DNA from: Branchiostoma lanceolatum
Lineage: Eukaryota > Chordata > Leptocardii > Amphioxiformes > Branchiostomatidae
Length of the DNA stretch: 64,000 bases
Direction: 5' to 3'
Assembly (NCBI RefSeq): GCF_035083965.1
Contig: NC_089732.1
Span: 12,849,424 to 12,913,423 of the forward strand
Position numbers and translations under genes: made by a program
Shown here: positions 17,735 through 64,000 of the stretch, one piece after another
Layout: the number at the start of each line of letters is the position of its first letter
How positions within the stretch are numbered: the first letter of the stretch is position 1
The notes under the pieces: generated by a model
What the model was told of the DNA's origin: nothing
Databases searched by the model: none
Seen by the model: the letters and a program-made list of their open reading frames with translations, nothing else

Positions 17735-17944
17735 TACTCCAAGCAGAGGAATGGGTCTGGCTGGTTTTTGACGTGTTTTAGGCGTTTTTGTCGGTCTTTC
17801 TATTTTGTTTCAATTTCTTAATGTCGCTTACCCAACCTCGTATGGGTTGGCAACGTAAAGAAAACGTTACAAAATAGAAAGACCAAAAAAACGCCCCAAA
17901 ACACGTCAAAAAACAGCCGGACCCACTCCTCTGCTTTTAGAGTA
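17735..17944. mobile_element. Palindromic MITE, CTCCAAGCAG family
   Basis: 210-bp hairpin starting TACTCCAAGCAGAGG and ending CCTCTGCTTTTAGAGTA. The flanking 9-bp direct repeat TCAAATGGC occurs at 17726-17734 and 17945-17953. Inner segments (GTTTTAGGCGTTTTTGTCGG) recur in the copies at 23122 and 60284. Confidence 0.85.
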
Positions 17945-23400: not shown

Positions 23401-25746
23401 GAAACGTCACGATCACCAAAGAATCAAGCCCGTGGAAGGTAACACTAACTGTGATCAGCGGGAGTTTTGAAGATTATTTCTCGGTTCAGAACATCAATCA
23501 TCTTGCTAGTCAATGTGCTCATCAGAAGCGACCTCTGGCGGCCTGTTGCATAACAGCAGTCTTTACCTAGTCCAAACCCGAATCACCCCAGCCCCAGCCT
23601 TCACCCGGATACCCGCAACTACAGCCCTCGTCGGTATCACATTGAGCGTTACACCTTCATATTTCTCTCCTCCTTTTCTCCTCAGTCCTTTTTGTTCGAT
23701 CCCGATAGTGGTGCATCTCACTCTTCATGCAGTGACTGTATATTGCGGACCAGAGAAATTTCTGTCTTCTTCTTTGTAAAGTACGTTTTGGTGTCTCTTT
23801 CCCAGTCGATCATACTGTCCCGGTTCATGGAGCAAACGGAACTAGAGTTAGAAGACAAGTCTGTGCTGGAGCTGGGAGCGGGGACTGGGCTAGTCAGCAT
23901 TGTTGCAAGTCTACTGGGTAAGTACACGCTGTATTTCTACCAATTGTTCAGCCTTTGTCACATATAGCCGTAGCCTGAGTACCAGCCTCCGTAGTGACCG
24001 CTGGCTCAAAAAAAATCGCTTGCTAACTCGGTGCTAACTACGCGTGAGGCTGGTACTCAGGCTAATATAGCCGATAATGGCCTCCCGAACTTCTTCAGGC
24101 AGTGGTTGGGAGTTAGTCGTGAGCAAGGTCATCTGTTGGGAGTCGGTTGGCAATGTTGCCCACCGTCTTTAAAAGTCGTCTGTGCTATGCATTATGAATT
24201 TCGACAAATCGATCTCGGGAAAGTGATGTTTTTCTTATAGTAATTAAGAGGCGACCAGAAGAGCGAACTGGGGTTGGAATAGGATGGGTTACAGGCTACT
24301 CCAACCCGGCTTCGACCTTGGTTTGGGATTGGCCGGGAGCAAAGTCGTGGGGTGGCCCTGAATGTGTGATTTAACCATTTGATCACGTTTAATACTACGC
24401 CTTTGAAGGTTAGTAGTGGATCAAATGTAGCAGACAGCTTATAGCGTCCCCCGTCTCTATTGTTGCATAAACAGGTGCTAAAGTGACGACCACGGACTGC
24501 GGGGAGACCCTGCCTTGCGCTCGGGGGAACGTGCCGAGGAACACCGAGCTGCGGTCCAAGCACGCGCCGGTCGTGCGCCGCCTGGAGTGGGGCTCCGCCG
24601 ACCTGGACGACTTCGGGCCAAAGGTTACTACAAATACACGCATGCGCGTGTTTGTAGCCTATCTTACTCACTTTGGGATCCGTAATCATGTAAATCCCTA
24701 TAGGCGAAATAATGTGGTCTGCGACCTTATGGCCTTGTCACACTTGTGCGTATCATCAGTGCAAGTGCGTATGAGTTGCGCATGAACATTTTTTTGTGGT
24801 TTATGTAAAGTTTACAGGGAAGAAGTTGTTTTCTATTTTGACCCACCGCTGTGCAGCATAGTTATCGAACCAGAGAAATTACTTCTTCGGCTGCAAACTT
24901 AACCTAAAACAAAAACAAGATTTTGGTACACTTTTTGCATTGGGGCCTGTGAGGACCCCTAAATTGAAATACTAGGCATGACGTCACAGATTCAAAATAG
25001 CGCCAACATATGAAACTTTCATCGTACTTTTCTGCCGTATAGAAAAGTTTGAATTTGACATTTTGGACATAATACTAGTATTCATTGGTTAGGCTGCTGT
25101 GGGGAGTGAGTTGTTTATATTTATTTATTTATTGAGATTTACCACATTTGTGGAAGGATTGACATAACAGGTGACTATCACCTTTTCAAGATGTCAACCC
25201 AGACTAGACTGTAAGGTTTGGACCATCGCACACCGGGGCATGCCCCTACTCTTTTTCGAAAGGTGTCGGTGGGTGCTTTAACGTGCGCGGGGTGTGGCTC
25301 TCCCAAAACACGGGACCTTCATTTAACGTCCTATCCAAGGGACGTCCCTAACCGAAGCTAGGTACCCATTTACACCTGAGTAGAGTGATGTTAATTAAAG
25401 TCTGGAATGATCACGGGTGGCAATATGATACCCTGTATTTGCGTATTCTTGCATTACATCGAATACAGATTTCAATTTATATACTTTTCTCTTCGGCATG
25501 CAGCAGTACGACTACATCATGGGATCAGACATCATCTACAAGGAGGAGACCTTCGCGGACCTGTACAAGACCATCATGCACCTGGCCGGAGCGGAAACAG
25601 TTCTGTATCTAGCCGGAAGGATCCGGTTCTCTGTAGACGAAGACTTTCTGGACACGTTAAAACAAGACTTCTACCTCAGTTGTGTTTATGAGGACACAGT
25701 CAGAGAAGTGTACATATATCGCGGTGAAAAGTTAAGAAATTCATGA
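20450..25746 (+). CDS. METTL21-family protein-lysine N-methyltransferase (4 exons, 198 aa)
   Basis: Exons 20450-20542, 23806-23917, 24475-24623 and 25504-25746 give 597 nt with consistent phases. This is a class I SAM-dependent fold of methyltransferase family 16, whose members methylate lysines on chaperones or elongation factors. Motifs: VGSTIWDASII before exon 2, SAM-binding VLELGAGTGLVS (51-62), VTTTD, and GSDIIYKEETF (125-135, post-I motif typical of METTL21 proteins). Length fits the family (about 200-230). The first coding exon opens at an acceptor at 20437, so an upstream non-coding exon is likely. Which paralogue (21A, 21B, 21C or other) it equals is not resolved; the second gene at 57971 is closer to METTL21A. 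Its last 45 coding bases are duplicated at 41818-41863. Confidence 0.88.
20690..20834 (-). mobile_element. tRNA-SINE, head fragment
   Basis: Reverse strand shows GTGTGGCGTAACGGCAGG, a B-box-like GAGTTCGAATCCCC and CTTGGGAAAGGCACTTAACA. The tail is lost. Intron 1 of the METTL21-family gene. Confidence 0.75.
21401..22350. mobile_element. TIR element of about 950 bp
   Basis: Left TTGGGTTAAGGCAGCCCAGG and right CTGGGCCGCCTTAACCCAAC? ends are complementary over 20 bp with one mismatch (21401-21420 and 22331-22350). Inner inverted CCGAGGCTATTTTG (near 21926) and CAAAATAGCCTCGG (near 22048) add a second hairpin. No transposase recognised. Confidence 0.65.
23122..23320. mobile_element. Palindromic MITE, CTCCAAGCAG family
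   Basis: Starts CACTCCAAGCACTGAGG and ends CCTCTGCTTGGAGAGTA; inner GTTTTAGGCGTTTTGTC and complement. No clear target duplication. Intron 1 of the METTL21-family gene. Confidence 0.75.
23953..24372. mobile_element. TIR element (GTCACACATA family), copy B, interrupted by a nested MITE
   Basis: Begins TTTGTCACATATAGCC and ends CCTGAATGTGTGA; internal GAGTTAGTCGTGAGCAAGG matches copy A. It is broken by the insertion at 23971-24064. Intron 2 of the METTL21-family gene. Confidence 0.75.
23971..24064. mobile_element. 94-bp MITE nested in another MITE, 9-bp target duplication
   Basis: Inverted ends TAGCCTGAGTACCAGCCTC / GAGGCTGGTACTCAGGCTA. The host sequence ATATAGCCG is duplicated at 23962-23970 and 24065-24073. 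Confidence 0.85.
25180..25385 (-). repeat. SINE body fragment
   Basis: Shares CCCCTACTCTTTTTCGAAAG, GGGACGTCCCTAACCGAAGC and TAGGTACCCATTTACACCTG with the reversed SINE at 60546-60781. No tRNA head. Intron 3 of the METTL21-family gene. Confidence 0.65.
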
Positions 25747-26037
25747 TGGAAAAACGCCCTGTTGTAAAGATAGTTGACCAACTTGCTTCCACAACTCAGG
25801 AACTTTCTGAACATTTTGCATAGCGGTTAAATATTTTTTCTTGTAAAAGAAACGTCGCAGTAAGCTGTTAAATGTTACAGTCAAACGACGACCTTTCACA
25901 TACTATAGTCTCAGTCAAGCGTCAAACCCCTTCACCCAAAAGAACCCAACATGCATATGTAGATGTTTAGGGGTGACCCGGTGGGCTTAGCTATAAAAGC
26001 GAGTAAAGCCGCATTGTATCGAAAGAGAGATAGCTGA

Positions 26038-26096
<59 letters not shown>

Positions 26097-26234
26097 GTAG
26101 GTAGTACCGTGAGTGAGTGAGTGAGTGAGTGAGTGAGTGAGTGAGTAAGAGTTTGTGTATGTGTGTGTTTGTATGTTTGTGTGTGTGTTTGTATGTTTGT
26201 GTGTGTGAGAGAGTGAGTGAGTGAGAGATAAAGA

Positions 26235-26286
<52 letters not shown>
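26038..26286. repeat. Microsatellite cluster (GA)n, (GAGT)n, (GT)n
   Basis: Runs of GA at 26042-26095 and about 26236-26285 enclose GAGT and TGTG/TTTG repeats. The inverted partner lies at 41279-41525. Confidence 0.95.
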
Positions 26287-26287
<1 letters not shown>

Positions 26288-26341
26288 ATGCATTGACGAT
26301 AAACATGAGATAAGTAAGACAATGAACGCAGGGTCTGAAAT

Positions 26342-26347
26342 TTTATT
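26342..26347 (-). terminator. Poly(A) signal, Patched copy 2
   Basis: AATAAA on the minus strand about 550 nt after the stop; conserved in the other arm at 41190-41195. Confidence 0.5.
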
Positions 26348-26896
26348 TGATCAACAAAACTTCAATGCAGACATGGACACTTTGCGAAATTAAATACAGC
26401 ATATCTTAGTTAACTCAGTTATTAACGAGGTTAGAAGATATCAACTACAAAGTCTCAGACCATCGTAGGTTAGCGTTTATTTGGCTATTTTAAAAGATAC
26501 ACGACGTGTATGACAATTTTCTTCTCATAATATTGACTATACTATAGAAAGAGAGGACGGTATTCTAAAGCACACATAGACCACCATATCTTATGTCTTT
26601 AATTAAAGGTGGGAGACAGACATGCCGCAGCAATACTTCAACAAAAATATTTAGACAAAATAACCATCTGATTTGTTAGATATATAGCTCTATTATCGTT
26701 ATCTGGCAGCATTTTCCCACATAGGCTACCATTTTACCGCAAGCTCTAAGGGCAAAGTTGCAGTTTCCAACGTCCTGGCTGGGTGCCGATACCTTTTGAA
26801 ACAGCCTGGACAATCTGGGGGCCCCCATTTTGGCTATTCCCTCCCTCCCTCTGGAAAGCTGGCTTCTCAGGCCTGGCTGTGAACACTGCACAGATC

Positions 26897-29800
26897 CTAT
26901 GGGTAATCTGATACCACAACCGGATTGTCTATACCCGTCTTCTGCCTGCCCACCCACTTTATCCATTCGCGCATTTCCGGAGTAAAATACGGGTTATCTT
27001 GTCCGGCTTTAGGGCGTAAATTGGGTAAGGACGTCGTTGGTTTCGTACCATTAATAGCTGATGCTTTGCCGGGTATATACGGACTGACCGAGTGGGGTCT
27101 AGGGTAGGAGGGCCGGGGAAAGCCTCCGTTAGAATGTGCGGTAGTCTTACTACTTTCCTTGACCGTTTCCCTCTCGTCTTGCCCTTGACCACACGGTCGC
27201 AGGGTGGTCAGTAGGATGGGTAGGATGACCAGTCCGTGAGTCGCACCGAAGACCATCACCAGAAAAATGGTCTTGAAAAACGCCCGAAAAATATACGCCG
27301 GAAAAAAGGCGAGAACTAACATACCGAGGATGGTAGAGAGAGAAGACTGGAGAATAGGCATGCCGACCGCGCGCATAGCTTCTGTCAGTTTTTCCGCGGG
27401 TACTGTGGCTTTGGAAGTGACATAAGCGTAGGTGATGTGCGCAAAGAAATCTACGGAGAACCCGATACACATGAGAATAGAGAGAACAGAGACGAGGTCG
27501 AGATTGATCCCCCATAACGTCATGTATCCCACAAGGCCTACGTTAATGGACACCAGGGCAAAGGTGATGAGGAAAGTAGCGACACAGTGCGGAATCAATA
27601 GGAAGCACACCACGAACATGATCGCTACGGCAATGCCAACAGTTTGTAGCGTACTTGGAAGAATGGTAACGACTTGGTCTGAGAGGAAGTAATCAAAGCT
27701 GTAAGCCTTCATTTTCAAAGGTTCCCGTTCCGCGATACTACGAGCTTCTGTCATCGCGAGCTTCCCTCGCTCGCTTGTAGTGACGTCCTTGGGTATGACA
27801 AAGAATCGTGACGCGGCTATACCAGTGTTGTTGTCTGCGAAATTCACAGACCCGTAATATTGACGTCCAACCGTTGGAAGAAACTGAGAAATTAGAACGT
27901 GTAAAAATGCCGTTTTGTTTGTGGCTGCATGAGAGTTGCCCGTCTGATTCAGAAAACGAAGGTAGTCTCTCAACCAGACCTCTGCGGTCTCCGATGTGTC
28001 GTAGAAATACTGGCTCTGGTCGAAAGCTTTTAGTTTGTCCAAAACAGCCTGTTGCACGTCTACTGTCCAATACTCCTGTGGTTCGGTTACAAAGATATCT
28101 ACTTTGCGGCCATATTCTTTAAAGTGTGTCGCTTCCGCGTCGTAGTACCCACGGACGTGTGAATCGTCCGCTACTACATTTTGGTACTCGAGGCCCATAC
28201 GGATTTGAAAGCACCCCCAAATCGCGACCCCCAGATACGCAGCGTATAAAATAAATATGACTACTTTTGATGAAGGTTTAAGGATGAAAGGAACAAGGTT
28301 ATTATACAATAGCCTGTTTAACAAAGGATCTTTGTTAAACTCTTCGGAGGAGGGGTTGTCGAACACGCCCTCCTGCTTGGACACGCCTCCTGCGCAGCAG
28401 AGTCGGTAGGCGGCGCTCTTGTCGCGTGCCTGTGATTTGGGGAGGACGGGGCAGCAGGTGAGGCAGTGGCGGTTGGCCCGCTCCCGCCGCCCGGTCAGCG
28501 ACATGAAGGCAGCGAAGAAGGTGATCTGGAAGTGGAAGAAAAGTAAATTACATGCATAGAGTACAGCAGACTTACGTGTTATGATTTCAATTTTCGATAG
28601 TAGACCAGTTTTGTCACAAATTTGATGATAACGGTGTGGATATAAAGGCGGTCGTCCCTCGGCGACATAACTCCCTTGGCAGCGAAAGTCCCTTGCCGGC
28701 ATTAGAGAACCTTGGCCCGTGAAAGAAATGCCCCCCCCCCAAAAAAAAATATATATACGCCGCCGTTATAGGAAGTCTGCGAAGGAGGCTAGATTATAAG
28801 CCCAAAAATGGCCGCCAGAGAGCCTGCTATGGAGGCTAAAGGTGTGAACGTATGACGTACCTGGTACAGGAAATCAAAGGCGACCCCCGCAGTAGCGTAG
28901 ATACAGAAGAGCCGCACGGACGGGAAGACGTTCCAGATGCCGGAGACGAACGCGAGGCAGTCGGTGATGGACGTGATGGTGATGGAAACCCCCGCGTCCG
29001 ACATGGCGCGCCCCGTGCGCTCCTGCACCGGAAGTCGTACGTCACACTTCCGCCAGGCGGCGATCATGACGAACATGTCGTCCACCCCGATTCCTAAACA
29101 ACAAGAGCACTATTAATGAACAATACAGGCGGGTTTAGCTATCCCAAACCAGTAATTAGCGACCGGTACGGAAAGGATAACATGTCTTAGGTTTTCTTAG
29201 ATGAGACTGGACATATAATCGTATATGGTGTACTTACAGTTCACCATTAGAATATTGTATATGTATATCTACAATGACATCGTAGAAAACCCCTATGGAC
29301 ATAGATCGAATGCATTGGTGCAATTTTTGAAATATTTTAGAGCGATTGTAATACTGTAAGAAATGCCTACGCCCCTGTAACGTCGCCAAAAAATAACACT
29401 GATTCGCGATATCTTTCAGTATTTTTATGTATTAGACGTCATAGATCAAACATTAAGCCGCTAGAGGTGTGCTATATGATATTCATACCTAGGAGTAGGA
29501 ACGGTATTGCCACGTTCAGTGACGAGAAGGATTGCCCTGCCAGGAGGACCACTCCGATGGACGAGACGATGGCGAGGACGGCGGACAACACGCCTATCAC
29601 CGCCAGCCACGGCTTGGTCAGTACCCAGTCCAGCATCACACACGATAACACAGAGAACAAAATCAGCAGTCCTACAGCCACTCCTACGTACACAATTATT
29701 CTTGACGGTAAAGATGCCAATTCGTCATCAATCGAGCTGAAAGTAAAGTAGTTCACCGTGATTTTGTCCGACTCGAATCCCGAACACACCCGACGAAATG

Positions 29801-30443
29801 TGTCGATCCATTGGCCTAAGGTTGTTTGTACGTTGTAGACTAAATGAAGAGCCTTGCTGGATAGAATTGTACTTTTGTCTGTGCTAAGTTCTACCCCACC
29901 AAGTTCGTTTCCAAAATACGTGCCGAGATTGAAGTCTACGCTGTTTGGGTTGTGGTAAGGATGGGTTAAGTTGGTAGAGGCTCGAAGTGCGGATCCTGAA
30001 CTGGCTGTTACCATGAGGGAAAGAACTCCACTCAGAACACAGTCAGTAGTAGCGGGGTCACGGAAACATAGAGAAGAGAACGTTTCCCCAGACGTTGTGT
30101 TTGTTGTTATCAACTCTTGGTGAAGCCGGAGTACCTCTTGGACCACGTCATCTCTAAAGAGGACGTCGCCGCCGTCCTTAGATTCTACGATTAATTCCGC
30201 CACGGCGTCGCCTGAAGGAGAGAATCCGGCCGCCGCTAACGCTTCTCCGTCCGGTAGCGCTTGTCCATCGTCCGGGACGAAAATGTAGGCGTCGTTTATG
30301 ACGAGCGTGCTGAGACCGAAGTACCCGAGAAGCGCCGACGCAATCAGAGGTAAGAGAATGAAAGGGGCGGGCCATCTGGCGACTGTCTTACCCAAGTTGT
30401 AGAACGCACGCCCGGAGGCCGCGTCGATCCATTTAGCTATCAT
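26897..30443 (-). CDS. Patched-domain (PTCHD3-like) membrane protein, copy 2 (3 exons, 938 aa)
   Basis: Exons 29489-30443, 28861-29093 and 26897-28525 total 2817 nt with matching phases. RND/Patched architecture: TM1 near residues 23-45; first extracellular domain with Cys residues and NxT sites; five-helix sterol-sensing-like bundle around residues 240-400 with GIGVDDMFVMIAAW; TM7 at IFILYAAYLGVAIWG; second extracellular domain; second bundle with GFSVDFFAHITYAY (second GxxxD motif); and a Pro/Ser-rich cytoplasmic tail ending VVVSDYP. Members are thought to move lipids or sterols; the substrate is unknown. An upstream in-frame ATG at 30467 adds 8 residues, but the start at 30443 is shared by all copies. 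Intact, head to head with copy 3. Confidence 0.95.
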
Positions 30444-30839
30444 GTCGTAGGTACACTGGACTGACACGGAATCTTGAAAGTCTCTCGACTAGCCTTTCTT
30501 TTATTATTGTCAACAAAGGAGTTCTGAAAATAAAAGAATTTCATGATTACCACTTGGAAGGAAAATGAAAAGAAATGGTCGTAATTTCTAGGTGTGAACA
30601 TCCTCCCAGCAGGCCCGATGTGTAGTAGCGATGTAAGACGTAACCTGATTGGTTGATAGCATCCCAGCGTCCTTTGCGATCTTAAGCCAGCCCTCTGATT
30701 GGCCGAAAGCTGTTTTGGTGGTGACGTCGCCAGAAGCGAGTTCACAGGCTGGAAAGGGCAGGGCCGCTATGGGAGGTAATGAACCGAGCATATCGGGCCT
30801 GCTGGGAGGATGGTTGTGAAAAGCCACTTTTAACCGCTT

Positions 30840-31040
30840 AAGGGCGTAACATACCAGATTTGCACAGTAAATACAAGCCGTGTGACACCAGACGGCAACG
30901 TGTAACCCGCCCAAACCGGGGTGGACCCTAATCGAGAGTTTCTTTACCTCGGAGTTGAGCGAGGAAATTGGTATAGAGTGATTTTCCCAAGGACAACACC
31001 AGGCTAAGCATTCAACCCTGAACCTTCAGGTCATAAGTCA
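30840..31040 (-). repeat. SINE-related fragment in left arm
   Basis: Reverse partner of 35170-35405; contains CCTTGGGAAAATCACTCTAT on the minus strand and GAGCGAGGAAATTGG on the plus strand. Confidence 0.55.
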
Positions 31041-31044
31041 ACGA

Positions 31045-31225
31045 CCCTATAAGCCAGTTCACGGTTGGTACTACGCATGTGCAGTGTCAAAGGTGAAGGC
31101 CCCAGGCTTGTTAACAGTTCTTGTCTCGACATTGTCTCGATTTGCATAACAACGCCCCGACGGGTTTTGTTTATGTCTTGGGGCCCTTCACCTTTAACGC
31201 TGCACATGCGTAGAAGCAACCGTGA
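31045..31225. mobile_element. Hairpin MITE present only in the left arm
   Basis: Inverted ends: TATAAGCCAGTTCACGGTTG / CAACCGTGAACGAGCTTATA, with GCATGTGCAGTGTCAAAGG and its near-complement inside. The right arm near 35180 lacks it, giving an empty site. A half copy lies at 48155-48230. Confidence 0.8.
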
Positions 31226-32214
31226 ACGAGCTTATAAACCACAAGGCCACCATGCCGCCATGTTGATCCGCAGGTCATTGAACTATGTACTGTGGCTAAT
31301 GACGGCAAGGCCATCTGAGGTCATCCAACAACAATTACTATCTCTATACAGTCTAAAACTGGTTCGTCTACCCACCAACAATGGCGCCCGAAGGCTTCCC
31401 TCACAAATCACACCTTTTCCACGACTCACGTTCAACGAAAAGAGCTAGACACTGCACGAAACCTTTCACAAACTAAACACGAATTCTTCTTGCTAGAGAT
31501 TCACCTTTAGAACGTCTCTTTTTTCAAAGCTACATTTGTGCAAACTCAGTCGTCTATGAAAGTGCTATCCCCAAGGTTGAATAGATCGCCATATTGTCCT
31601 CTCCGACAGTGGTTACGAAGACCCCAGAGGTAAACACATTTGACAAGTTTCCCACTAAATCACAACATATAGTTTAACGTAAAACTATATATATATATAG
31701 ATCATTGCTTCTCATGCACGGCTGCTAAGTTTACATTTTCGCCCGAAGTCATTATTTTATACGGCAGTGGGGCTCGGACCTAAACAACAAGGCATTGGTG
31801 GCTGAAGATATGACCATAAATGAAACGTGAATTTTTGAATTATACACATGTAGCTAGGTTTGATATAACTATCGTTAAGATATTCATACATGAACTGCTT
31901 AAGCGTACAGAGAATATGTACTCACCCTAGTCCCTCCGCTGTCTTTGTTGAGATATGGTTGTATTACAGGTACGTATACGTTTGTTATGAGTAATAGTGC
32001 CTACGTCTCTATACGTCACAATAGTACAATACTGGGTAGGGCACCGACCCGGACGGGCGAGAGACTGCCAATGATGCCTTCGGCTCAAGGTGACTAAACT
32101 AGCCTGTCATAGACCCAGCCACACTCACAAATCTGATCAGGAGGCACCAAATATTCAAGTTTGACATTCATTTGGCAAAACTCGTGGTGCAGCAAAAGGA
32201 CTACATTGACATGG

Positions 32215-32595
32215 TACGTCATTTTAAAAAAATATTATTATTGTTTATTGTTTCGCATATGTACAAGTATTTTAAAACAAAGAAATACAGGGCAAAAAAA
32301 TATGCAGGGGGGGGGGCAGAAGCCTAGGTGGCTTTTCGTGGGCCTCCCATCGAAACTTAACAATAGGAATTATATCATAAATTGTACATAACTCAAAACT
32401 AAACAAAATTAACGATAGAAAATAAGTTGAACTTATATCATAAATCCTAATAGATGAACAGATACGAGGAAATACAAAATGAATTTTAAGGTATTAAACA
32501 TAATAAGGTATGCTAGTATGCATCAATGAACAAAAATTAAACAAAATATTAATCATCAAATACTAATAATCAAATATCAAGGGAAAAAGGAAAAC
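32215..32595. repeat. Left-arm-specific insertion
   Basis: Sequence between matched arm blocks (CTACATTGACAT on one side, GGTTGTGAATCAGAG on the other) that is absent from the right arm, where the same blocks are about 15 bp apart. AT-rich; contains a G run and GGTGGCTTTTCGTGGGCC. Possibly a retroelement 3' end. Confidence 0.6.
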
Positions 32596-32706
32596 ATCTT
32601 GGTTGTGAATCAGAGAACTCTAATTCTGCTATCAATTTTGCAAATTTATCATAAACTGTGTGTCCTGCCGTAAAATATGGAAATCGTCGTTTCTCCCCAC
32701 TTCCAG

Positions 32707-32895
32707 ATCACCTTCTTCGCTGCCTTCATGTCGCTGACCGGGCGGCGGGAGAGAGCCAACCGCCACTGCTTCACCTGCTGCCGCACAAGAGCGCCGCCTA
32801 CCGACTCTGCTGGGCGTGTCCACGCAAGAGGGCGCGTTATGTGTACCGCTCCTCCAAGGATCCTTTGTTCTTTAACAGGCTATTACATACTAACC
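32707..32895 (+). pseudogene. Patched exon-3 fragment (broken)
   Basis: Begins after an intact TTCCAG acceptor and encodes ITFFAAFMSLTGRRERANRH, then loses a segment and shifts frame before a decayed match to the NKDPLLNRLL region. It lacks the rest of exon 3. Part of the inner edge of the left arm. Confidence 0.85.
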
Positions 32896-32896
32896 T

Positions 32897-33020
32897 TCAT
32901 TACAGGTTTGCGTAGCAAAACCTTTGTTGGATCCGTTGGCTTGTGTAGTGGCCGCCATCTTGAATTGTGACGTCACAGGGTCGCCATACCATTTTTTGGG
33001 AGGGGTGTTTTGGGGGGTCG
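32897..33020 (+). repeat. Dispersed repeat of about 125 bp, copy B
   Basis: ACAGGTTTGCGTAGCAAAAC, GGCCGCCATCTTGA, GTGACGTCACAGGG, GGGAGGGGTGTTTT: same order as 14038-14162. Confidence 0.75.
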
Positions 33021-33964
33021 CTTCCTTTACTTTCGCTCATCTCAGTATCTGGGTGCATTCGCCTAATCTCCAAGCAGATCTATTGGTTGCATAAAGACCG
33101 TATCAAACTGGCAGAGGAAGTACGTTTTGCAACCCAAGCAAAGGTTAACGTATACTTCTTACTTGCATTGCTGGTCCAAATAAAAACCAAATTCTAACTA
33201 AAGATACAAGAATGGCCTGCACGGACTATTTTATCTGAATACCTCTACAATATGATAATATATATCAATTCCCTTATTGTATGGCGTTGAAAATGATGCT
33301 GCCAATGGTGAAGAATAAAATAAGTAGAACAGTAAGGCTCTGAATGTTCATTTCCTTACAATCTTAGTGAAAAAAACAACTTGACACATCAGTGGTCGCA
33401 TGGACACGTGCGTAAAAATGAATACAAGTTATACAACACATCTTAGGTCGACAGCTACTACAAAATGACTATAGTAGGTGCTGGGCAATGATATATCGTA
33501 GTGTGTTAGCGTTTATTTGGAAAATTTACAAGATAAGACAATTGACAATGAAGGTTAGTATGTGATATATTAATTATTTTATGAGGCTTGAAACTTGAAT
33601 CAAAAACCCTCCAATTTCTAGTCATTCCTACACATAGTATGTTTCAATAACACTTTACCATAATGATTACATATCGACATTAGAGGAGCAAAGATACGAT
33701 GTCGTTGTGTGGTGAGAACTGATAGAATATTCAAGCCCTGATAGACTGATCCTGACTGTCCATCACGATCAGCGGTTCGACCAATGAGAGAGTGACTGCA
33801 TGTCCGTCAAATATTTGCATTTTCATGTTTTAATTTTGCATTTTTACGTTTTGACGGTATATTTACACTAGGCGCGTGAAACTAAAAGGTCACTATGTAG
33901 TTTATTTTTGTGCCGCTTTTGAGCACTTTTGGCATTAAATGTCAATTTTATAAAGATTACTGCA
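32901..33964. other. Spacer of the giant inverted duplication
   Basis: About 1.06 kb without coding exons. Holds the dispersed repeat copy B, a lone ATCTCCAAGCAGATC at 33068-33082, and a repeat near 33585-33830 (GAGGCTTGAAACTTGAATC, GTCGTTGTGTGGTGAGAACT) that recurs at 47790-48060. Confidence 0.7.
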
Positions 33965-33967
33965 ACT

Positions 33968-34148
33968 AGAATATTTCCAGTTTTCTAGCCTCATAAATTG
34001 CCCTGGATCCTTGGAGGAGGACACGCCCAGCCGAGTCGGTAGGCGGCGCTCTTGTTGTGTGCCTGTGCAGCTGCTGGTGAGGCAATGGCGGTTGGCCCCC
34101 TGCTCCCGACGCCCGGTAAGAGACATGAAGGCAGGCGAAGAAGGTGAT
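33968..34148 (-). pseudogene. Patched exon-3 fragment (broken), inverted partner
   Basis: Minus strand starts after a TTCCAG acceptor with ATCACCTTCTTCGCCTGCC (one extra base, so the frame is lost at once) and matches the same short stretch as 32707-32895. Confidence 0.85.
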
Positions 34149-35169
34149 CTGGAAGTGGGGAGAAACGACGATTTCCATATTCTACGGCAGGACAGTTTAT
34201 AAAAAAAATTCAAAATTAATAGTAAATGTTCTCTGATTCACAACAAATAGGATTATGCCCTGTCAATGTAGTCCTTCTCCTGCATTACATTAGTTTTTGC
34301 TATACGAATGTCAAAATAGTATATTTGGTGATCAGATTTGTAAGTTTGGCTGGGTCTATGACAGTCTAGAGTTTAGTCACCTTGAGCCGGAGGCGTCCTT
34401 GGCTGTCTCTCGCCCGTCTGGGGCGGTGCCCTACTGATCCAGTATTGCACTATTGTGACGTATAGAGACGTAGGCACTATTACTCATAACAGACGTATAC
34501 GTACCTGTAATACAACCATATCTCACAAAGACAGCGGAGGACTAGGGTGAGTACATATTCTCTGTACACTTAAGCAGTTAATGAATCACTAACGATAGTT
34601 ATATCAAACCCAGATGACCTAAAATTCAAAAATCCACATTTCATTTATGGTCATATCTTCAGCCACCCATACCTTGTTGTTTAGGTCTGAGTCCCACTAC
34701 CGTATAAAGAAATGACTTGGCGAAAATGTAAACTTAGCAGTCGCGTATGAGAAGCTGTTGTCTATATATCTAGGTTTACGCTAAACTATATGTTGTGATT
34801 TAGTGGAAAAGTTGTCTAATGTGTTTACCTCCTGGGTCGTCGTAACCACTTGTGGAGAGGACAATATGGCGATCCTTGGGGATAATAACACTTTCATATA
34901 CGACGGCGTTTGCACAAAAGTGGTTTTGAACCAATAAACATTTAGAAACGTGGATCTCTAGGTGTACATTTGGGGAAGGTTTCATGCAGTGTCTAGCTCT
35001 TTTCGTTGAACGTGAGTCGAGGGAAACTTGTGATTTGTGAGGGAAGCCTTCGGGCGCCATTGTTGGTGAGCGGACGAACCAGTTATTGAGATGGTAATTG
35101 TTGTTGTATGACCTCAGATGGCCTTGCTGTCATAAGCCACAGTACATAGTTCAATGACCTTGAACATGG

Positions 35170-35405
35170 CGGCATGGTGGTTAGGGTTGTTGACTTATGA
35201 TCTGAAGGTTCAGGGTTGGAATGCTTAGCCTGATATTGTCCTTGGGAAAATCACTCTATACCAATTTCCTCGCTCAACTCCGATGAAATGAGATACTTCG
35301 ATGAGGGTCCATCCCGGTGTGGGTGGGTTGCACGTTACCGTCTAGCGTCACACGGCTTGTACTTTCTGAGCAAAACTGGTATGTTACACCCTTAGCGGCG
35401 TTCAA
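35170..35405 (+). repeat. SINE-related fragment in right arm
   Basis: GTTCAGGGTTGGAATGCTTA (B-box-like), CCTTGGGAAAATCACTCTAT, GGTCCATCCCGGTGTGGGTG, GGTATGTTACACCCTTAG. Mirrors 30840-31040. Confidence 0.55.
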
Positions 35406-35572
35406 AAGTAGCTTTTCACAACTAGAAATTACGACCCTTTCTTTTCATTTTCCTTCCAAATGGTAATCATGAAATTCTTTTGCTTTCAGAACTCTTTTGT
35501 CGACAATATTGTAAAAGAAAAGGCTAGTCGGGAGACTTTCAACATTCCGTGTCCGTCTAGTGAAACTACGAC

Positions 35573-38500
35573 ATGATAGCTAAATGGATCGACGCAGCCT
35601 TCGGGCGTGTGTTCTACAACTTGGGCAAGACAGTCGCCAGGTGGCCCGCCCCTTTCATTCTCTTACCTCTGCTCGCGTCGGCACTTCTCGGGTACTTCGG
35701 TCTCAGCACGATCGTCATAAACGACACCTACACCTTCGTCCCGGACGATGGACAAGCGTTGCCGGACGGAAAAGCGTTAGTAGCGGCCGGGTTCTCTCCG
35801 CCCGGCGACGCCGTGGCGGAATTAATCGTACAATCTAAGGACGGCGGCGACGTCCTCTTCAGAGACGACGTGGTCCAAGAGGTACTCCGGCTTCACCAAG
35901 AGCTGACAACTGCGAACACAACGTCTGGGGAAACGTTCTCTTCTCTCTGCTTCCGTGACCCCGCTACTACTGACTGTGTTCTGAGTGGAGTTCTTCGCCT
36001 CATGGTAACAGCCGGGTCAGGATCCGCACTTCGAACCGCTACCAACTTATCCTATCCTTACTACAACCCAAACAGAGTAGACTTCAATCTCGGCACGTAT
36101 CTTGGAAACGAACTTGGTGGGGTAGAACTTAGCACAGACAAAAGTACAATTCTATCCAGCAAGGCTCTTCATCTTGTCTACAACGTTAACGTAACAACCT
36201 TAGGCCAATGGATCGACACGTTTCGTCGGGTGTGTTCGGGATTCGAGTCAGACAAAATCACGGTGAACTACCTTACTGTACGCTCGACTGATGACGAAAT
36301 GGCAACTTTACCGTCAAGAATAAGTGTGTACATAGGGGTGGCTGTAGGACTGCTGATTTTGTTCTCGGTGTTGTCGTGTCTGATGCTGGACTGGGTACTG
36401 ACCAAACCGTGGCTGGCGGTGATAGGCGTGTTGTCCGCCGTCCTCGCCATCGTCTCGTCTATCGGAGTGGTCCTTCTGGCAGGGGAATCCTTCTCGTCAC
36501 TGAACGAGACGATTCCGTTCCTGCTCCTAGGTATGAATATCATATAGTAATAATAGTCTTTATTGCCATATTTCTGCCCAGATTGGCTAAATGCAGAGAT
36601 GACCACACGTGGTCTAGAGGATACAAATTGTAAAACATGATAAACTAGAAAAGAAATGCCACATTCTAACATTACAAAGTAGAAAACGAACAAGACTATG
36701 AACTATTCTTGATCTAATGTTAAACACCTAATTATTTCTTCTCTCTTTTTGAAACGCTTGGAAACATATCTATATACTTTGTCAAGTATATGCTCATTCG
36801 TACATGACATCAGGTAAATGAAAGTGTCCTGCTTTGTCATTTTTGTACATTTCTTGTCTAGTTCTATTGTATCAAACAGCGATTAGCGCTCATTTTCATA
36901 AATGTTTGATCTATGACGTTTCAAATGTATTGGACAAACCCAAGTCAACCGTACACACTCATGCCACATCCTCAGAAAAGACGCTGCATGTAGCCGCATA
37001 GTCACCCCCATGAAACTCCTAATGGGCCGTACCCGGAAATATGGGCCGTACCCGGTAAAAATATGGGCCGTACCCGGAAATATGGGCCGTACCCGGTGAA
37101 AATATGGGCCGTACCTGGAAAATGGGCCGTACCCTGTAACTATGGGCCGTACCCAATGGCGGACATCGCCCGGCCACACTGCGTAGTCGCGTGAAAGTCG
37201 CGTCTAGATACCCTGTACCGCAACGATACACAATCACACATAGCCTATGCTCTGGCAAACATTCCTGGCCACCTCTCTGCCGAGTGGCGTTGTACAAATC
37301 ACCCCCAATTTCGAAATTTCGAGAACACTCACACAAGCTGTGGCGAGATGCCGTCTGTAGTGCTCATCTGCATATTTTTACCGGGTACGGCCCATATTTC
37401 CGGGTACGGCCAAGATCTTTACCGGGTACGGCCCATATTTCCGGGTACGGCCCATAAGGAGTTTCATGGGGGTGATAGTTCCCATTTAGAATTCAATTCT
37501 AGCCCACGCTCAGACAATCGTTTCGCCGGTGTGGCTTTCTCAATACAAAGGCTCGAATGGTCTTCTACTGCACTTTCTCTATGACGTTTTGTATTTAAGG
37601 TTATTGAAAACTTTTATCGCAAAGCATGCAGCTGCAGTGCTAGTTTTGGCGGCGCCTCAGGGACGGTCGCGCTTAAAATATTTCAAGAACTGTACCAATG
37701 AATTCCAGCAAATTTGCATTGATGTCGCTGCAGGTTTGAAAATTCTAACGGTTACAGTCAAATATTTGCCGTTTTTCATTGCGATTACAAGTGCGTCTGT
37801 CCAATCTTCTTTGTAAAAACCCAAGACAGACATCTTTTTTTCTAAAAATCCCGGTTATAAATTACAGGTCTGCGATAATAAAACCTGTATTGTTTCATCA
37901 ATATTCTTGTTGTTTAGGAATCGGGGTGGACGACATGTTCGTCATGATCGCCGCCTGGCGGAAGTGTGACGTACGACTTCCGGTGCAGGAGCGCACGGGG
38001 CGCGCCATGTCGGACGCGGGAGTTTCCATCACCATCACGTCCATCACCGACTGCCTCGCGTTCGCCGCCGGCATCTGGAACGTCTTCCCGTCCGTGCGGC
38101 TCTTCTGTATCTACGCTTCTGTGGGAGTCGCCTTTGATTTCCTGTACCAGGTACGACCTTCAGACCTTTAGCCTCCATAGCAGGCTCTCTGGCGGCCATT
38201 ATTGGGCTTATAATACACTTTTGGTGATTACTCCTTTTTGTACTGGGTCGTTTGTAGAAAAAGAGGTTATCAGCAAAAGTGGATTATAAGCCCACAAAAA
38301 AAGGCCCAGAGGGCCTGCTATGGAGGCTATACACATTCGCCTTGTCCCATCCTCATCTTGAGGGTCGGGGACCATGGCCGCTTCCAGCACAAGCTTTCTC
38401 CATCCTTCTCTGTCCTTCGCCCTCTGTGTGCATTCTGACAATGACCTGCCTGCCCAGTCCCGGGCTGATGTCATCTCCCAATCTCTTGCGAGACCTCCCT

Positions 38501-40636
38501 GCATGGGCCTCCACTTCTGGTGCCACAGATCTTCCCTTGCAGGATGTGTGTTGAGAAAAAAAATGTCCTGGAGTCTGGTGACATACGCATGTTCAAAGCA
38601 CAGGCTCTTCATTCTTTTAACCATACATATACATAGAGTCATTAATTTGTTAATGGAGTGTAAAGTTCTTTGAAACACAATAGAGAGGAATTGATAAAAA
38701 CATGCACTCCTGGCATCAAATAATGATTGAGGAGGGGATACAAACTTAGTCATGTTTGGGACCGCATTCTTCCCGCTGCAGCGCCACCTAGCAGTGTAAA
38801 GTATATTGCAAATTAAGTTATTATTGACCTAGTTGAGGAAGGTAGTAGAGGGTCTACTGAAAGAAAGGTCCTCTTGGTTGCTTACCAAAGAACTTTACCA
38901 TCAACTTTGCAAATTTGTTACAAACTGGCCTGCTATCGAAAATTGAAATCATAACACGTAGCTCTGCTGTACTCTATGCACATGATTGACTTTACTTCCA
39001 CTTCCAGATCACCTTCTTCGCTGCCTTCATGTCGCTGACCGGGCGGCGGGAGCGGGCCAACCGCCACTGCCTCACCTGCTGCCCCGTCCTCCCCAAATCA
39101 CAGGCACGCGACAAGAGCGCCGCCTACCGACTTTGCTGCGCAGGTGGCGTGTCCAAGCAAGAGGGCGTGTTCGACAACCCCTCCTCCGAAGAGTTTAACA
39201 AAGATCCTTTGTTAAACAGGCTATTGTATAATAACCTTGTTCCTTTTATCCTTAAACCTTCATCAAAAGTAATCATATTTATTTTGTACGCTGCTTATCT
39301 GGGAGTGGCGATTTGGGGGTGCTTTCAAATCCGTATGGGCCTCGAATACCAAAATGTAGTAGCGGACGACTCACACGTCCGTGGGTATTACGACGCTGAA
39401 GAAACACACTTTAAAACATTCGGCCGTAAAGTAGACATTTTTGTAACCGAACCAAAAGAGTATTGGACACTAGACGTGCAACAGGCTGTCTTGGATAAAT
39501 TGAAAGCTTTCGACCAGAGCCAGTATTTCTACGACACGTCGGAGACCGCAGAGGTCTGGTTGCGAGACTTCCTTCGTTTTCTGAATCAGACGGGCAACTC
39601 TCACGCAGCCACGAACAAAACAGTATTTTTACACATTCTAATTTCTCAGTTTCTACCGACAGTCGGACGTCAGTATTACGGGTCTGTGATTTTCGCAGAC
39701 AACAACACTGGTATAGCCTCGTCACGATTCTTTGTCATACCGAAGGACGTCACGACAAGCGAGCGAGGGAAACTCATGATGACAGAAGCTCGTAGTATCG
39801 CGGAACGGGAACCTTTGAAAATGAAGGCTTACAGCTTTGATTTCTTCCTCTCAGACCAAGTCGTTACCATTCTTCCAAGTACGCTACAAACTGTTGGCAT
39901 TGCCGTAGCGATCATGTTCGTGGTGTGTTTCCTCTTGATTCCGCACTGTGTCGCTACTTTCCTCATCACCTTTGCTCTGGTGTCCATCGACGTAGGCCTT
40001 GTGGGATACATGACGTTTTGGGGGATAAATCTCGACATCGTCTCTATCGTCTCTATTCTCATGTGTATCGGGTTCTCCGTGGATTTCTTTGCACATATCA
40101 CTTATGCTTACGTCACTTCCAAAGCCACAGTACCCGCGGAAAAACTGACAGAAGCTATGCGCGCGGTCGGCATGCCTATTCTCCAGTCTTCTCTCTCTAC
40201 CATCCTCGGTATGTTAGTTCTTGCCTTTTTTCCGGCCTATATTTTTCGGGCGTTTTTCAAGACCATTTTTCTGGTGATGGTCTTCGGTGCGGCTCACGGA
40301 CTGGTCATCCTTCCCATCCTACTGACCACCCTGCGGCCATGTGGTCAAGGGCAAGACGAAAGGGACACGGTCAAGAAAATTAGTAAAACTACCGCATTTT
40401 CTAACGGAGGTTTTCCCCGGCCCTCCTACCCTAGGCCGCACTCTGTCAGTCCGTATATACCAGGGAAAACATCAGCTATTAATGGTACGAAACCAACGAC
40501 GTCCTTGCCCAATTTACGCCCTAAAGTCGGACAAGACAATCCGTACTTTACTCCGGAAATGCGCGAAGGGATAAAGTGGGTGGGCAGGCAGAGAACGGGT
40601 ATAGACAACCCGGTTGTGGTATCAGATTACCCATAG
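35573..40636 (+). CDS. Patched-domain (PTCHD3-like) membrane protein, copy 3 (3 exons, 939 aa)
   Basis: Exons 35573-36530, 37918-38150 and 39008-40636 total 2820 nt. Exons 2 and 3 have exactly the same lengths as in copy 2 (233 and 1629 nt); exon 1 is one codon longer (NVNVTTLGQ against NVQTTLGQ). All features of copy 2 are kept, including GIGVDDMFVMIAAW, the Cys-rich loop NRHCLTCCPVL, GFSVDFFAHITYAY and the tail ending VVVSDYP. An upstream stop (TAG at 35558) precedes the ATG closely, supporting the start. Introns are much longer than in copy 2 (1387 and 857 bp against 395 and 335) owing to insertions. Intact and probably functional; likely the derived copy (see findings). Confidence 0.95.
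37003..37474. mobile_element. Foldback element with internal GGGCCGTACCCGG repeats
   Basis: Inverted ends CACCCCCATGAAACTCCT / AGGAGTTTCATGGGGGTG with flanking direct repeats ATAGT (36998-37002, 37475-37479). The left arm has about six head-to-tail copies of an ATGGGCCGTACCCGG unit and the right arm about four in reverse. Inserted in intron 1 of Patched copy 3 only. Confidence 0.85.
38345..38535 (-). pseudogene. Non-LTR retrotransposon reverse-transcriptase C-terminal remnant
   Basis: The minus strand encodes ARDWEMTSARDWAGRSLSEC, then TQRAKDREGWRKLVLEA, the typical end of LINE polyproteins (WRxLV after a basic Trp-rich stretch). No upstream RT motifs. In intron 2 of Patched copy 3. Confidence 0.6.
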
Positions 40637-41189
40637 GATCTGTGCAGTGTTCACAGCCAGGCCTGAGAAGCCAGCTTTCTAGAGGGAGGGAGGGAATATC
40701 CAAAATGGGGACCCCTGATTGGCCAGGCTGTTTCAAAAGGTATCGACACCCCGTTAGAAACTGCAACTTTGCCCTTGGAGTTTGTGGTAAAATGGTAGCC
40801 TATGTGGGAAAATGATGCCAGATAACGATAATAGAGCTATATATCTAACAAATCAGATGGACATTTTGTCTAAATATTTTTGTTGAAATATTGCTACGGC
40901 ATGCCTGTCTCCCACCTTTAATTAAAGACATAAGATATGGTGGTCTATGCGTGCTTTAAAATACCGTCCTCTCTTTCTATAGTATAGTAAATATTATGAG
41001 AAGAAAATTGTCATACACGCCGTGTATCTTGTAAATTAGCCAAATTAACGCGAACCTACATGTACAATGGTCTAAGCCTTTGTAGTTGATATTATCTAAC
41101 CTATGTAATAACTAAGTTATCTGAGATAAGTTGTATTTATTTTTGCAAAGTGTCCATGTCTGCATTTAAGTTTCAAGTTTTGCTAATGA

Positions 41190-41195
41190 AATAAA
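41190..41195 (+). terminator. Poly(A) signal, Patched copy 3
   Basis: AATAAA about 555 nt after the stop, in the same place as for copy 2. Confidence 0.5.
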
Positions 41196-41278
41196 ATTTC
41201 AGACCCTACGTTCAGTGTCTTACTTATCTCATGTTTATTTTCATTTATTGTCAATTCATAGCCTCCTAAGCAGCCTTT

Positions 41279-41279
41279 A

Positions 41280-41337
<58 letters not shown>

Positions 41338-41478
41338 ATCTCTCTCTCCCTCCCTCACACACACGCACACACACACACACAAACATACAAACACAAATAC
41401 ACAGTCACATAAACTCTCTCACTCACTCACTCATTCACTCACTCACGGAACTACCTACCTACTCAACCACCTATCCAT

Positions 41479-41522
<44 letters not shown>

Positions 41523-41525
41523 AGT
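41279..41525. repeat. Microsatellite cluster, inverted partner of 26038-26286
   Basis: (CT)n, (AC)n and (CTCA)n blocks in reversed order relative to the left arm. Confidence 0.95.
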
Positions 41526-41817
41526 TATCTCTCTTTCTCTACAATGCGACATCGCTCGCTTTTATAGCAAAGCCCACCGACCCGGTGACCCACCCCTACA
41601 CATCTACATAAGTGTGTTGGGTTCTTTTAGGTGCAGGGGTTCGACGCCTGACTGAGGCTATAGTATATGAAATGTCGTCGTTCGACTGTAACATTTTAGA
41701 GCTTACTGTAACTTTTTTTTTACAATAAAAATATCTAACCACTATGCAAAATGTACAGAAAGTTCCTGAGATGTGGAAGTAAGTTGGTCAACTATCTTTA
41801 CAACAGAGTGTTTTTCC

Positions 41818-41863
41818 GTCATGAATATCTTAACTTTTCGCCGCGATATATGTACACTTCTCT
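41818..41863 (-). pseudogene. Orphan copy of the end of the METTL21 last exon
   Basis: The minus strand reads AGAAGTGTACATATATCGCG followed by a near-copy of the METTL21 C-terminal codons (VYIYRGEKL) and the stop region. The match stops at about 41863, where unrelated sequence begins. Confidence 0.8.
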
Positions 41864-41939
41864 CACCTCCTCTGCCACCGGGTGCCAAATTCGACCCAGG
41901 CGGAGAGAACTTTGCGTGCCCCGAAGAAGGATTGGCCAC

Positions 41940-42175
41940 CTATACCATTTGTGCTACGGGCCTCACAAGAGCGTTGCGTTTTCCTTAGGCCTTAGCTCGT
42001 TTCAGTATAAAAACACTTGTACCACCGTGTACCACTTGTGCCACGGGCCTCACAAGAGCGCTGCCTTTTCCTTCGCTCGTCTCAGTATAAAACCACCTGT
42101 ACCACCGTGTACCACTTGTGCCACGGGCCTCACAAGAAGTTGCCTTTTCCTTCGCTCGTCTCAGTATCTGGGTGC
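41940..42175. repeat. Three imperfect tandem repeats of 80-86 bp
   Basis: GGGCCTCACAAGAG recurs at about 41958, 42044 and 42124, each followed by TTTTCCTT, CTCGT and CAGTATAAAA or CAGTATCTGG. Confidence 0.8.
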
Positions 42176-42363
42176 ATTCGCCCGCGATTTCGTGATGTCG
42201 ACCCACACAAGTCGGGAAACATTTACGTGCGAGCAAGGGACGTTCGTAGCGCCGGTAATCGGATCGGAGGTCGGCATGTCGCCGTGTATCTGGGTGCATT
42301 CGCCGGCGATTTCGTGATGTCTTACATGGAAGCTCCGCCCTCAAATTAGAGATATGGCCCGGG

Positions 42364-42825: not shown

Positions 42826-45800
42826 ATGTCGGCCGCGCCACCTATGTCCGGCGATGGACAGGGTAAGTCTTCGAGTCAGTAAACTGGTCAAGGAAATGCC
42901 ACCAAACGAAAAGTCACTCCTTGCACCAACGATACCTTAAAGAGCCACTGAACTTTGCATAACGTTTTAAGATATTGTTAAAGCAAGCATCTTATAAGTA
43001 ACTGTAAGGTCATTGTAATATGTCTATGTTTAACTTTATTCACATGTTGCGTAACACAAACAAGCTGATATTGGTCAGGACAACAAATCTTACCACGGCT
43101 TGCGCCAGAGCGAACTTGGGAAATACTGTACATTTCAAGACGATTTATGATATCTTTGAGGGAGAGGTTATAATACGTAGCTATTGGGTTAAAATCACTC
43201 ATATTTGTCAGTATGGTAAAAAAATACAGCATAACTTGCTGTGTATGTGCAGTGTAGTGTTGACAACTAGCACTGAGTATGCTTGCCACATGTATGTTAT
43301 TCTACGGCGGTTTCATCCCCCAAACAACAGCGAACCAAGTATCTATTTTGTCAGCATAATGACTAGATACCCGTATACATGTCGGTCGTGTGGAGTAGTG
43401 TTTCAGGGGACGTTTGTTCACACAAATCCGTCCTCTGTGACACCCGTCCTCGCATGTCACCAGCCACTTGTTTGTGTTGTTGCCGAGATATTTACATCTC
43501 AGACGTCACACACGCATCACTTTACAATGTTAGAAGTCCCTGTCACACATATTCAGGACGCTCTCACGACTTGCTCCCGACCATTTCCCAACCAAGGTCG
43601 GCGCTGAGTTGGGAGTAGCCTGGAATCTATCCTATTGTAGTTCACTACTCTTATCGTATTTTAGTTGAATCTGACTTTCCTGAGTTTGATTTGTCAAAAT
43701 ATGTAGTCGGCTGGATTTTTAAGACAAGTGGGCAAACTACACAGATGGCCTTGCTCAACTCCCAACTATATATGGTCTGGATAAGGTCGGGGGGGGGGGG
43801 GGGGGGGGCTGTGGTCAAGTACTAGTACTGTATGTGTGATAGGGGCTTAGCACAGATGTGATGTAAAGTGCTTGCCTGTGAGTGAGTTGATTTAACATTA
43901 TTCACGCAAACCTTGTTTTGTAGTCTGGCTATTCGAGTCGAAGCTGTGATAAACTTTATTGTTGTTACGAAGCCAATACAATGACACTGATTGCCAAATT
44001 GTCTACACCTCGGGTAATTTGTACTAAAGACGAAACCTAGTTTTAGGGCGCGTAATCTTCAATCCCGGGAGAGCCCGAAAGTCGGTGCAATTTGCGCAAA
44101 TTAAGGATAGAAAAGAAACAAGCATAGAATTGTTTCCCTACCAATATCTGGAAACAGAACAAGTCGAGTTTCAATGTGTTTTTTCCTTGTTTGAGCACAC
44201 GTAGTCTGTACATGTACCTGGACTGTATTTTCAGTGTTTGAAATTACATGAACGTACTTTAAATAGAAATCAAATGTTTAGGATTGTGATGTTAAAGGCA
44301 CTCCATATTCCATATATATACATTTAAGGTCTCCCTTGGAAATCAGTTACAATGTTAACTGAAGGGACCACCCTAAAGATGAATAGATAAATAAACATAT
44401 CTTCAACATTTCGAGCCGTTTCATTTACCATTCGAATTTGACCAGTATTGACCATTGCGCGCTCGATTTACCCAGAGTTCGACGAGCCGACTAAAAACTA
44501 TCTAGAGTAAAACGTGTTCCTAATACCGGGATGTAAAAAAAAAGCACCTCCAGAAAATAACCTTAAAGAAGATGACAGGATAATGGCGATTAAGATCAAC
44601 CAAGAAGCTCCTCGGATTGATTCTAAAGAAAGTTGTATCTGTTTCAGACAGCTTCTTTCAAAAGCGGGGTTTTCCTGGGGCCAGGGCGGTTGTGGTATCA
44701 CGTTTCACATCTCTAGTATTGTACGAGGATTAAACTCAGCATAGTTTGGACAGGAATCTGATCGATGCATGTGTAGGGGTAAAAGGGGAATAATTAAAGG
44801 ATCATGCAGTTAAAGCACCCAAACGGAACGGTAGCTGCAGTGCGCTAGCTAACCGCTAGAGTTATTTCGTATTGTTGTTTGTCAGTGATAATGAGGAAGA
44901 GTTATGCTGGTCACATTTTGACGAAACTACCACCTTAGCTAACGTTGTGTACACGCTTTGTTGTGAGCATTGTTTGCAAGGCTTCTTTGCATGGTGTGAA
45001 AACTGGCTCACATCTGTTCAAAACGTTACATTTTCCAAATTTAGGGCTCCATGGCAAGAGTTCGAGGATCGCATACCTCCGTGAAATATTTCCTATTTCA
45101 ATTTCTTGTCTTAGTCATGATTGTAAATCTCTCACTGAACAGCTTTTTTCCCGTCTGGCTCCAGTATTTAAGGCCCATAGGGTAACAACAGGCATGCATG
45201 TATTAGGAAATTGAAGACAGGGAACTTTGATAGCATTCTGGGACCTTTCAAGAACCTTTGACCTAACTTCCTGTCAGTGTCTCCACATAACTAGCATGTA
45301 AATAAGTGATTAAACACAAATAGATAAACAGACACACCGAAAAGAAAACCTTCCGTTCCACGTAGATAACCATAACACTTTTCTATATTCCATATACTAT
45401 TCTATATACCATGTAGTTATAGTAGTAGTCCTCTGTGTTTGTTTGTTATATACATTTCTAAATAACTTTTTCTCTATATTCTCCACAGGCGGGTTGGTCG
45501 AGTTGTCCAATGGGCACAGCATGTCTCTACAGACGGCCCGCATGATGAACGTGTCGCTGCAGCGCCGCCTACACGACAAGGTGCATCGGATTGAACTGCA
45601 GCACCAGAAGACCCGGCTCGCCCGCAACATCGAGACTCGTGATCTCAAGGACCTGCTTCTTGCAATCAAGTCCCAACCCTTGGAGTACCTTGAGCCCGAA
45701 AACAACCCTCGTGCAAAACAGGGGAAAAGTGCGAACGGTCCTCAGCGAGTGTCCGCACAAAATGGGGGTCATAGACCTCAGATTCCGAGATTGCCACGAA

Positions 45801-57547: not shown

Positions 57548-57730
57548 TACTCTCCAAGCAGAGGTAAGATCCGGGGTATTTTCGACGTATTTTCGCGGTA
57601 TTTTATACGTATTTGCACTTTTCCGTTTTTTGTTGAGTCTTCCTCCTCTTATGAGGAAAAGTCGAAAGACGTTTAAAAACCACGGAAATACGTCGAAAAT
57701 ACCCCGGATCTTGCCTCTGCTTGGAGGGTA
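57548..57730. mobile_element. Palindromic MITE, CTCCAAGCAG family
   Basis: 183-bp hairpin, TACTCTCCAAGCAGAGGTAA to TTGCCTCTGCTTGGAGGGTA; inner TATTTTCGACGTATTTTCG and complement. Flanks show only a partial direct match. Confidence 0.85.
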
Positions 57731-63958: not shown

Positions 63959-64000
63959 GTCTACACGCTGAATCTACAATACAACCAGAGCTGTTTTGAA

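Follow-up and report, generated by a model that had tools for sequence, protein, structure and literature searches.

A stretch of 64,000 nucleotides from the lancelet Branchiostoma lanceolatum (assembly GCF_035083965.1, contig NC_089732.1, positions 12,849,424 to 12,913,423; hereafter the window, within which all positions are counted) contains a palindrome, in the form of an inverted repeat in which each arm bears a Patched-type gene. We consider it very probable that this palindrome is an inverted segmental duplication within a small cluster of Patched-type RND genes, and that its arms have drifted apart since, with conversion between them not needed to account for their likeness. One end of the duplicated segment would lie in the last exon of a neighbouring METTL21-like gene and the other at an older exon-3 fragment upstream of the one Patched-type gene that it enclosed, and this segment would have been copied in inverted orientation beside itself; we infer that a single event was involved and that the right arm arose from the left. 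Afterwards the arms would have diverged, each acquiring transposon-like insertions of its own, with both reading frames retained through purifying selection.

Structure of the palindrome

Self-BLAST of the window, together with a directed comparison of its halves, joins positions 25699-32821 to 41866-34019 by six collinear minus-strand blocks: 32821-32599 with 34019-34247 (81.5%), 32214-31247 with 34258-35180 (83.0%), 31049-30813 with 35182-35422 (87.6%), 30598-29472 with 35415-36547 (92.1%), 29157-28793 with 37860-38214 (92.1%) and 28624-25699 with 38910-41866 (90.3%), these percentages including gap columns. The last of these blocks is the longest (2973 columns), and the E-values of the three longest were printed as 0.0, which excludes chance. 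At the centre, homology can be followed by eye beyond the BLAST blocks as far as a GGATCC common to both arms (~32865 and ~34003), and the spacer is therefore ~1.1 kb long. The left arm, probably the parental copy, thus covers ~7.2 kb (25699 to ~32865, minus strand), and is mirrored across the spacer (32866-34002) by a right arm of ~7.9 kb (~34003 to 41866, plus strand, with translated homology up to 41872), which is probably the derived inverted copy. A preliminary description of this DNA, made from the letters alone, had proposed arms of ~7.2 and 7.9 kb around a spacer of ~1 kb and had called for a self-comparison, and the mirror homology found here bears it out; the palindrome that it called giant is real, but with arms of 7-8 kb the word holds only in a relative sense. 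The microsatellites that it had matched between the arms are mirrored at 26039-26285 and 41280-41540, and the inner pseudogene pieces are present on both sides. Within the spacer there are two dispersed repeats, one at 32896-33022 with further copies at 14.0 and 59.9-60.0 kb, the other at 33576-33919 with a further copy at 47.8-48.2 kb.

Gene L, of the left arm, lies on the minus strand (coding exon 1 at 29489-30443, exon 2 at 28861-29093, exon 3 with the stop codon at 26897-28525), and gene R, of the right arm, on the plus strand (35573-36530, 37918-38150 and 39008-40636, respectively), as established by translation and by reading the splice sites directly. Exon 1 measures 955 bp in L versus 958 bp in R, while exons 2 and 3 have the same lengths in both (233 and 1629 bp), as had been claimed. 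All introns have GT...AG termini and neither gene model contains an internal stop, so that the earlier view of two intact, head-to-head genes of three exons stands. Their start codons are only 5 kb apart, and the proteins of 938 (L) and 939 (R) amino acids are identical at 873 of 938 aligned residues. Intron 1 of R, at 1387 bp, is much longer than that of L (395 bp). G+C content at third codon positions (GC3) is 0.59-0.66, which would fit amphioxus. The poly(A) signals, which had been said to match, do so only in part: an ATTAAA (26603 in L and 40921 in R, 294 and 285 bp past the stop) and an AATAAA (26347 and 41190, 550 and 554 bp past the stop) are paired, but the AATAAA sequences at 26481 and 41724 have no counterpart in the opposite arm. 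Both arms share, upstream of the start codon, a conserved TTTCAG that resembles a splice acceptor (~30524 on the minus strand for L, ~35489 on the plus strand for R), and a 5' noncoding exon is therefore possible in both genes.

The predicted products of L and R are Patched-type RND membrane proteins. A domain search with the spliced protein, for which R alone was used, identified the Patched sterol-sensing domain (PF02460, E = 2.1e-47, residues 260-407, profile positions 4-156 of 156), and structure matches of R include Patched-1 and NPC1. The second RND half is represented by residues 668-842 of R, which match NPC1, and exon-3 residues 282-453 match residues 974-1145 of Patched-1. Patched and PTCHD proteins are expected to carry the motifs GxxxDD and GxxxD in their two halves; here GIGVDD is found at residue 319/320 and GFSVD at 751/752 (L/R). 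A crude hydropathy scan gave 16 and 17 overlapping segments in the two proteins, versus twelve membrane spans in the family. R shares both the sterol-sensing domain and the second RND half with the Patched, PTCHD and NPC1 family of eukaryotic RND proteins, from which we saw no decisive difference. L and R may be PTCHD3-like; a literature search on PTCHD3 in amphioxus returned only work on a sea anemone, and one on expansion of the Patched-domain family returned nothing.

Arm boundaries and probable direction of copying

The outer boundary of the left arm (25699) falls inside the last exon of a plus-strand METTL21-like gene (Methyltransf_16), the end of which, recognised by its domain and by translated match, lies at 25501-25746 (exon start approximate) with the stop codon at 25746. 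By contrast, the right arm keeps no more of this gene than its final 15-17 codons and stop, which translated matching places, mirrored and truncated, at 41819-41872 on the minus strand. At the inner boundary, an exon-3 pseudogene fragment of opposite sense to L (32701-32906, plus strand, end approximate) extends past the end of the left arm to ~32906, whereas its shorter counterpart on the right (34003-34158, minus strand) ends at ~34003. Since both the METTL21-like gene and the pseudogene fragment are shorter on the right only, the right arm is most likely the inverted daughter copy of the left; counting against this direction, the truncations on the right could be due to later deletion. Collinear inverted homology in coding and noncoding sequence alike, with a boundary that cuts a neighbouring gene, is what characterises an inverted segmental duplication, and both are seen here.

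Immediately outside the right arm are 80-bp tandem units (41936-42167), and 40 bp of sequence at 42143-42182 are found again within the spacer, at 33024-33063, with 92.5% identity. Both observations could be relevant to how the copy was inserted.

The arm-specific insertions mentioned in the preliminary description are also found, in the form of two clean insertions confined to the left arm. That at 30599-30812 (minus strand) has terminal inverted repeats and 8-bp flanks, TTCACAAC and TTCACACC, that agree by eye at 7 of 8 bases, and the corresponding right site (~35415-35422) is empty. The other, at 31050-31246 (minus strand), is self-palindromic (~71%); sequence related to it occurs at 48.15-48.22 kb, and the right site is empty at ~35181. 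In the right arm, intron 1 is far longer than in the left; its bulk (36548-37859, plus strand) includes a fold-back block at 37002-37475, made up of 105-bp inverted arms (95%) around 19/41-bp tandem units.

Divergence of the arms and the case for conversion

Leaving out microsatellites and unalignable inserts, the arms are 92.4% identical (419 mismatches over 5488 aligned sites). Noncoding sequence differs at 248 of 2671 sites (9.3%), with Kimura two-parameter distances (K2P) of 0.104, 0.104, 0.101, 0.097, 0.083 and 0.122 for the six longer segments and of 0.049-0.135 for three short intron ends; one 17-bp piece shows no difference. Between L and R, synonymous divergence per site (Ks) is 0.164 (101 differences over 684.5 synonymous sites) and nonsynonymous divergence (Ka) is 0.035, giving a Ka/Ks of 0.21; exon by exon, Ks and Ka are 0.150 and 0.055 (exon 1), 0.036 and 0.023 (exon 2), and 0.195 and 0.025 (exon 3). 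The Ks of the genes is therefore not below the divergence of the noncoding arms. As the silent sites of the genes are no more alike than the rest of the arms, the likeness of the proteins comes from selection, and these rates indicate that purifying selection keeps both reading frames.

It had been suggested that palindromes of this sort can hold their copies alike through gene conversion, and a comparison of the synonymous divergence of the genes with the arm introns had been proposed as a check. Compared with noncoding divergence, the Ks goes against the suggestion for these arms, as does their overall identity, which is far from the >99.9% of Y-chromosome palindromes. The geometry suits a palindrome in which arms pair, copy each other and thereby keep their genes uniform, and the arms are closely similar in exon 2 and where exon 3 begins, yet we regard this explanation as very unlikely. 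In noncoding sequence, differences are not significantly over-dispersed in bins of 100 bp (p = 0.16) or 200 bp (p = 0.18), and the longest identical run (75 bp) is unexceptional under permutation (p = 0.15). Synonymous differences between L and R likewise show no over-dispersion by 40-codon bins (p = 0.39), and among 843 degenerate codons that encode the same amino acid in both genes, no window of 25 codons is unusually different (p = 0.30) or unusually alike (p = 0.9996, with little power). Conversion between the arms is thus not needed as the cause of their likeness according to the silent-site, noncoding-dispersion and identical-run tests.

Several results nonetheless weigh against a history of drift alone, and differences are mildly uneven along the arms. 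In 50-bp bins, noncoding sequence does show over-dispersion of differences (p = 0.011), and the gapped alignment may understate noncoding divergence. The exons, with 171 differences over 2817 sites, are over-dispersed at 50 bp (p = 0.0015) and 100 bp (p = 0.0015), less so at 200 bp (p = 0.059), and contain an identical run of 149 bp (p = 0.013), although these dispersion and run tests mix in protein constraint. For synonymous differences the range of the cumulative sum is significant (p = 0.024), and exon 2, which was picked after seeing the data, has only 2 over ~57 sites (p = 0.007). Furthermore, windows of 25 codons free of differences are expected by chance between L and R, so that the power to detect tracts of unusual likeness is small. 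On the other hand, GC3 in L and R is ~0.8-0.93 across the stretch of low divergence in exon 2 and early exon 3, and codon bias can therefore lower Ks there. Taken together, these comparisons offer no good evidence for conversion between the arms, given tests of limited power, and short exchanges may be compatible with the mild unevenness of differences.

A third Patched-type paralogue, C, identified by self-comparison and translation, lies at 1-2725 on the minus strand (exons at 2725-1762, 1099-867 and from 570 to the edge of the window, by which it is cut), ~24 kb from L and in the same orientation. Between L and C there is no synonymous difference in 25 consecutive degenerate codons for the same amino acid (alignment columns 553-579, permutation p = 0.001), a stretch that corresponds, as computed from the alignment columns, to ~28075-27995 in L and 132-52 in C. 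Over the bin of 30 codons that starts at column 540, such codons differ in 6 of 26 cases for L and R, 7 of 21 for R and C, and 5 of 23 for L and C. The longest run of sites shared by L and C only is six (p = 0.0002), in a test whose shuffling ignores the local closeness of C to both copies, and maximal-segment permutations of sites shared by C with L versus those shared with R were not significant (p = 0.53 and 0.36). Because the tract is one signal among several tests (two segment, three run and two L-R tests, plus six window tests of codons for the same amino acid), we describe limited gene conversion between C and L as likely, not proven; it is the best conversion signal at the locus.

The Ks of C to L or R falls to 0.19-0.55 in exon 2 and early exon 3, compared with values mostly >1 in exon 1 and of 0.5-0.9 at the end of exon 1, and comparison of the introns of C with those of L or R gave no convincing match. 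Conversion might account for this dip, but codon bias or constraint would explain it equally well in view of the high GC3 and the unmatched introns. A wider conversion network among the three copies, operating mainly between C and L and homogenising their exons while leaving introns untouched, in the manner of conversion that is cDNA-templated or strongly GC-biased, with the inverted neighbour exchanged less, seems improbable.

Assembly artefact and alternative histories

High heterozygosity can yield haplotypes assembled as separate loci, a problem known from highly heterozygous animals such as amphioxus (PMC9673378), and such a structure might in principle arise if two haplotypes of a locus were assembled head to head or if a contig were mirrored. 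An artefact of either kind is very unlikely, although a wrong join keeps a small probability. Homology does not extend into the flanks, where one side has a METTL21-like last exon and the other only the last codons, and among the matches listed (those of at least 100 columns, out of 92 pairs in total) no piece common to the two flanks exceeds 184 columns. The METTL21-like exons of the two sides are only 48-51% alike in protein over the two that were matched, the noncoding difference of 9.3%, the Ks of 0.16 and the arm-specific insertions speak against two versions of one sequence, and the window is without any N. The earlier argument that this is not a simple mirror error therefore agrees with the divergence, the insertions and the one-sided truncation of the METTL21-like gene. 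An alternative history, in which a direct tandem duplication was followed by inversion of one copy, draws some support from C, whose orientation shows that direct copies already exist in the cluster. We nevertheless think it unlikely, as the mirror homology is unbroken between the METTL21-like stop codon and the pseudogene fragment, for which one event is enough.

Comparison with known palindromes

With one inverted duplication followed by drift as the preferred reading, the locus seems to be an inverted duplication of an ordinary kind and of some age rather than a palindrome homogenised by conversion. The palindromes of the human Y chromosome resemble it in that a small spacer separates two inverted arms that bear genes, but their arm identity exceeds 99.9% through conversion (PMC3723533), versus 92.4% and no well-supported arm-to-arm tracts here. 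Closer parallels exist among invertebrates: palindromic gene duplications are described in Folsomia candida, Adineta vaga and other species (PMC5490193, PMC7953838), and the lancelet locus is a further example of such structures. The F. candida Dscam2 palindrome has a Ks of ~0.2 (PMC5490193), near the value obtained here. These cases also comprise inverted intrachromosomal gene duplicates, and some species have one palindrome with two genes, whereas in the first studies of A. vaga and F. candida a block had to contain at least five genes to be counted, compared with one gene pair here (PMC7953838). The present case is one locus, useful as an illustration and no surprise: a truncated neighbouring gene marks the likely direction of copying, and the arms suggest that palindromic geometry alone need not bring about their concerted evolution.

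Other features of the window

METTL21-like genes stand in mirror orientation on both sides of the palindrome (~23.8-25.75 kb, plus strand; 57974-63973, minus strand), the first exon of the right-hand gene presumably being that at 63.6-63.97 kb. With protein identity as low as that given above, they are older paralogues, perhaps from an earlier inverted event. Scanning the window found neither a tRNA nor any Rfam match that reached the gathering score, and a stop-to-stop open frame of 358 codons (45314-46387, plus strand) has no Pfam match at E = 0.001. Repeats that are self-palindromic over 166-450 columns, resembling fold-back elements or miniature inverted-repeat transposable elements, occur at 3803-3968, 4939-5382, 17741-17936 and 57548-57730. 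Finally, an exon at 49172-49465 (minus strand) has an AhpC-TSA domain (E = 9.1e-12) and points to a gene of peroxiredoxin type.

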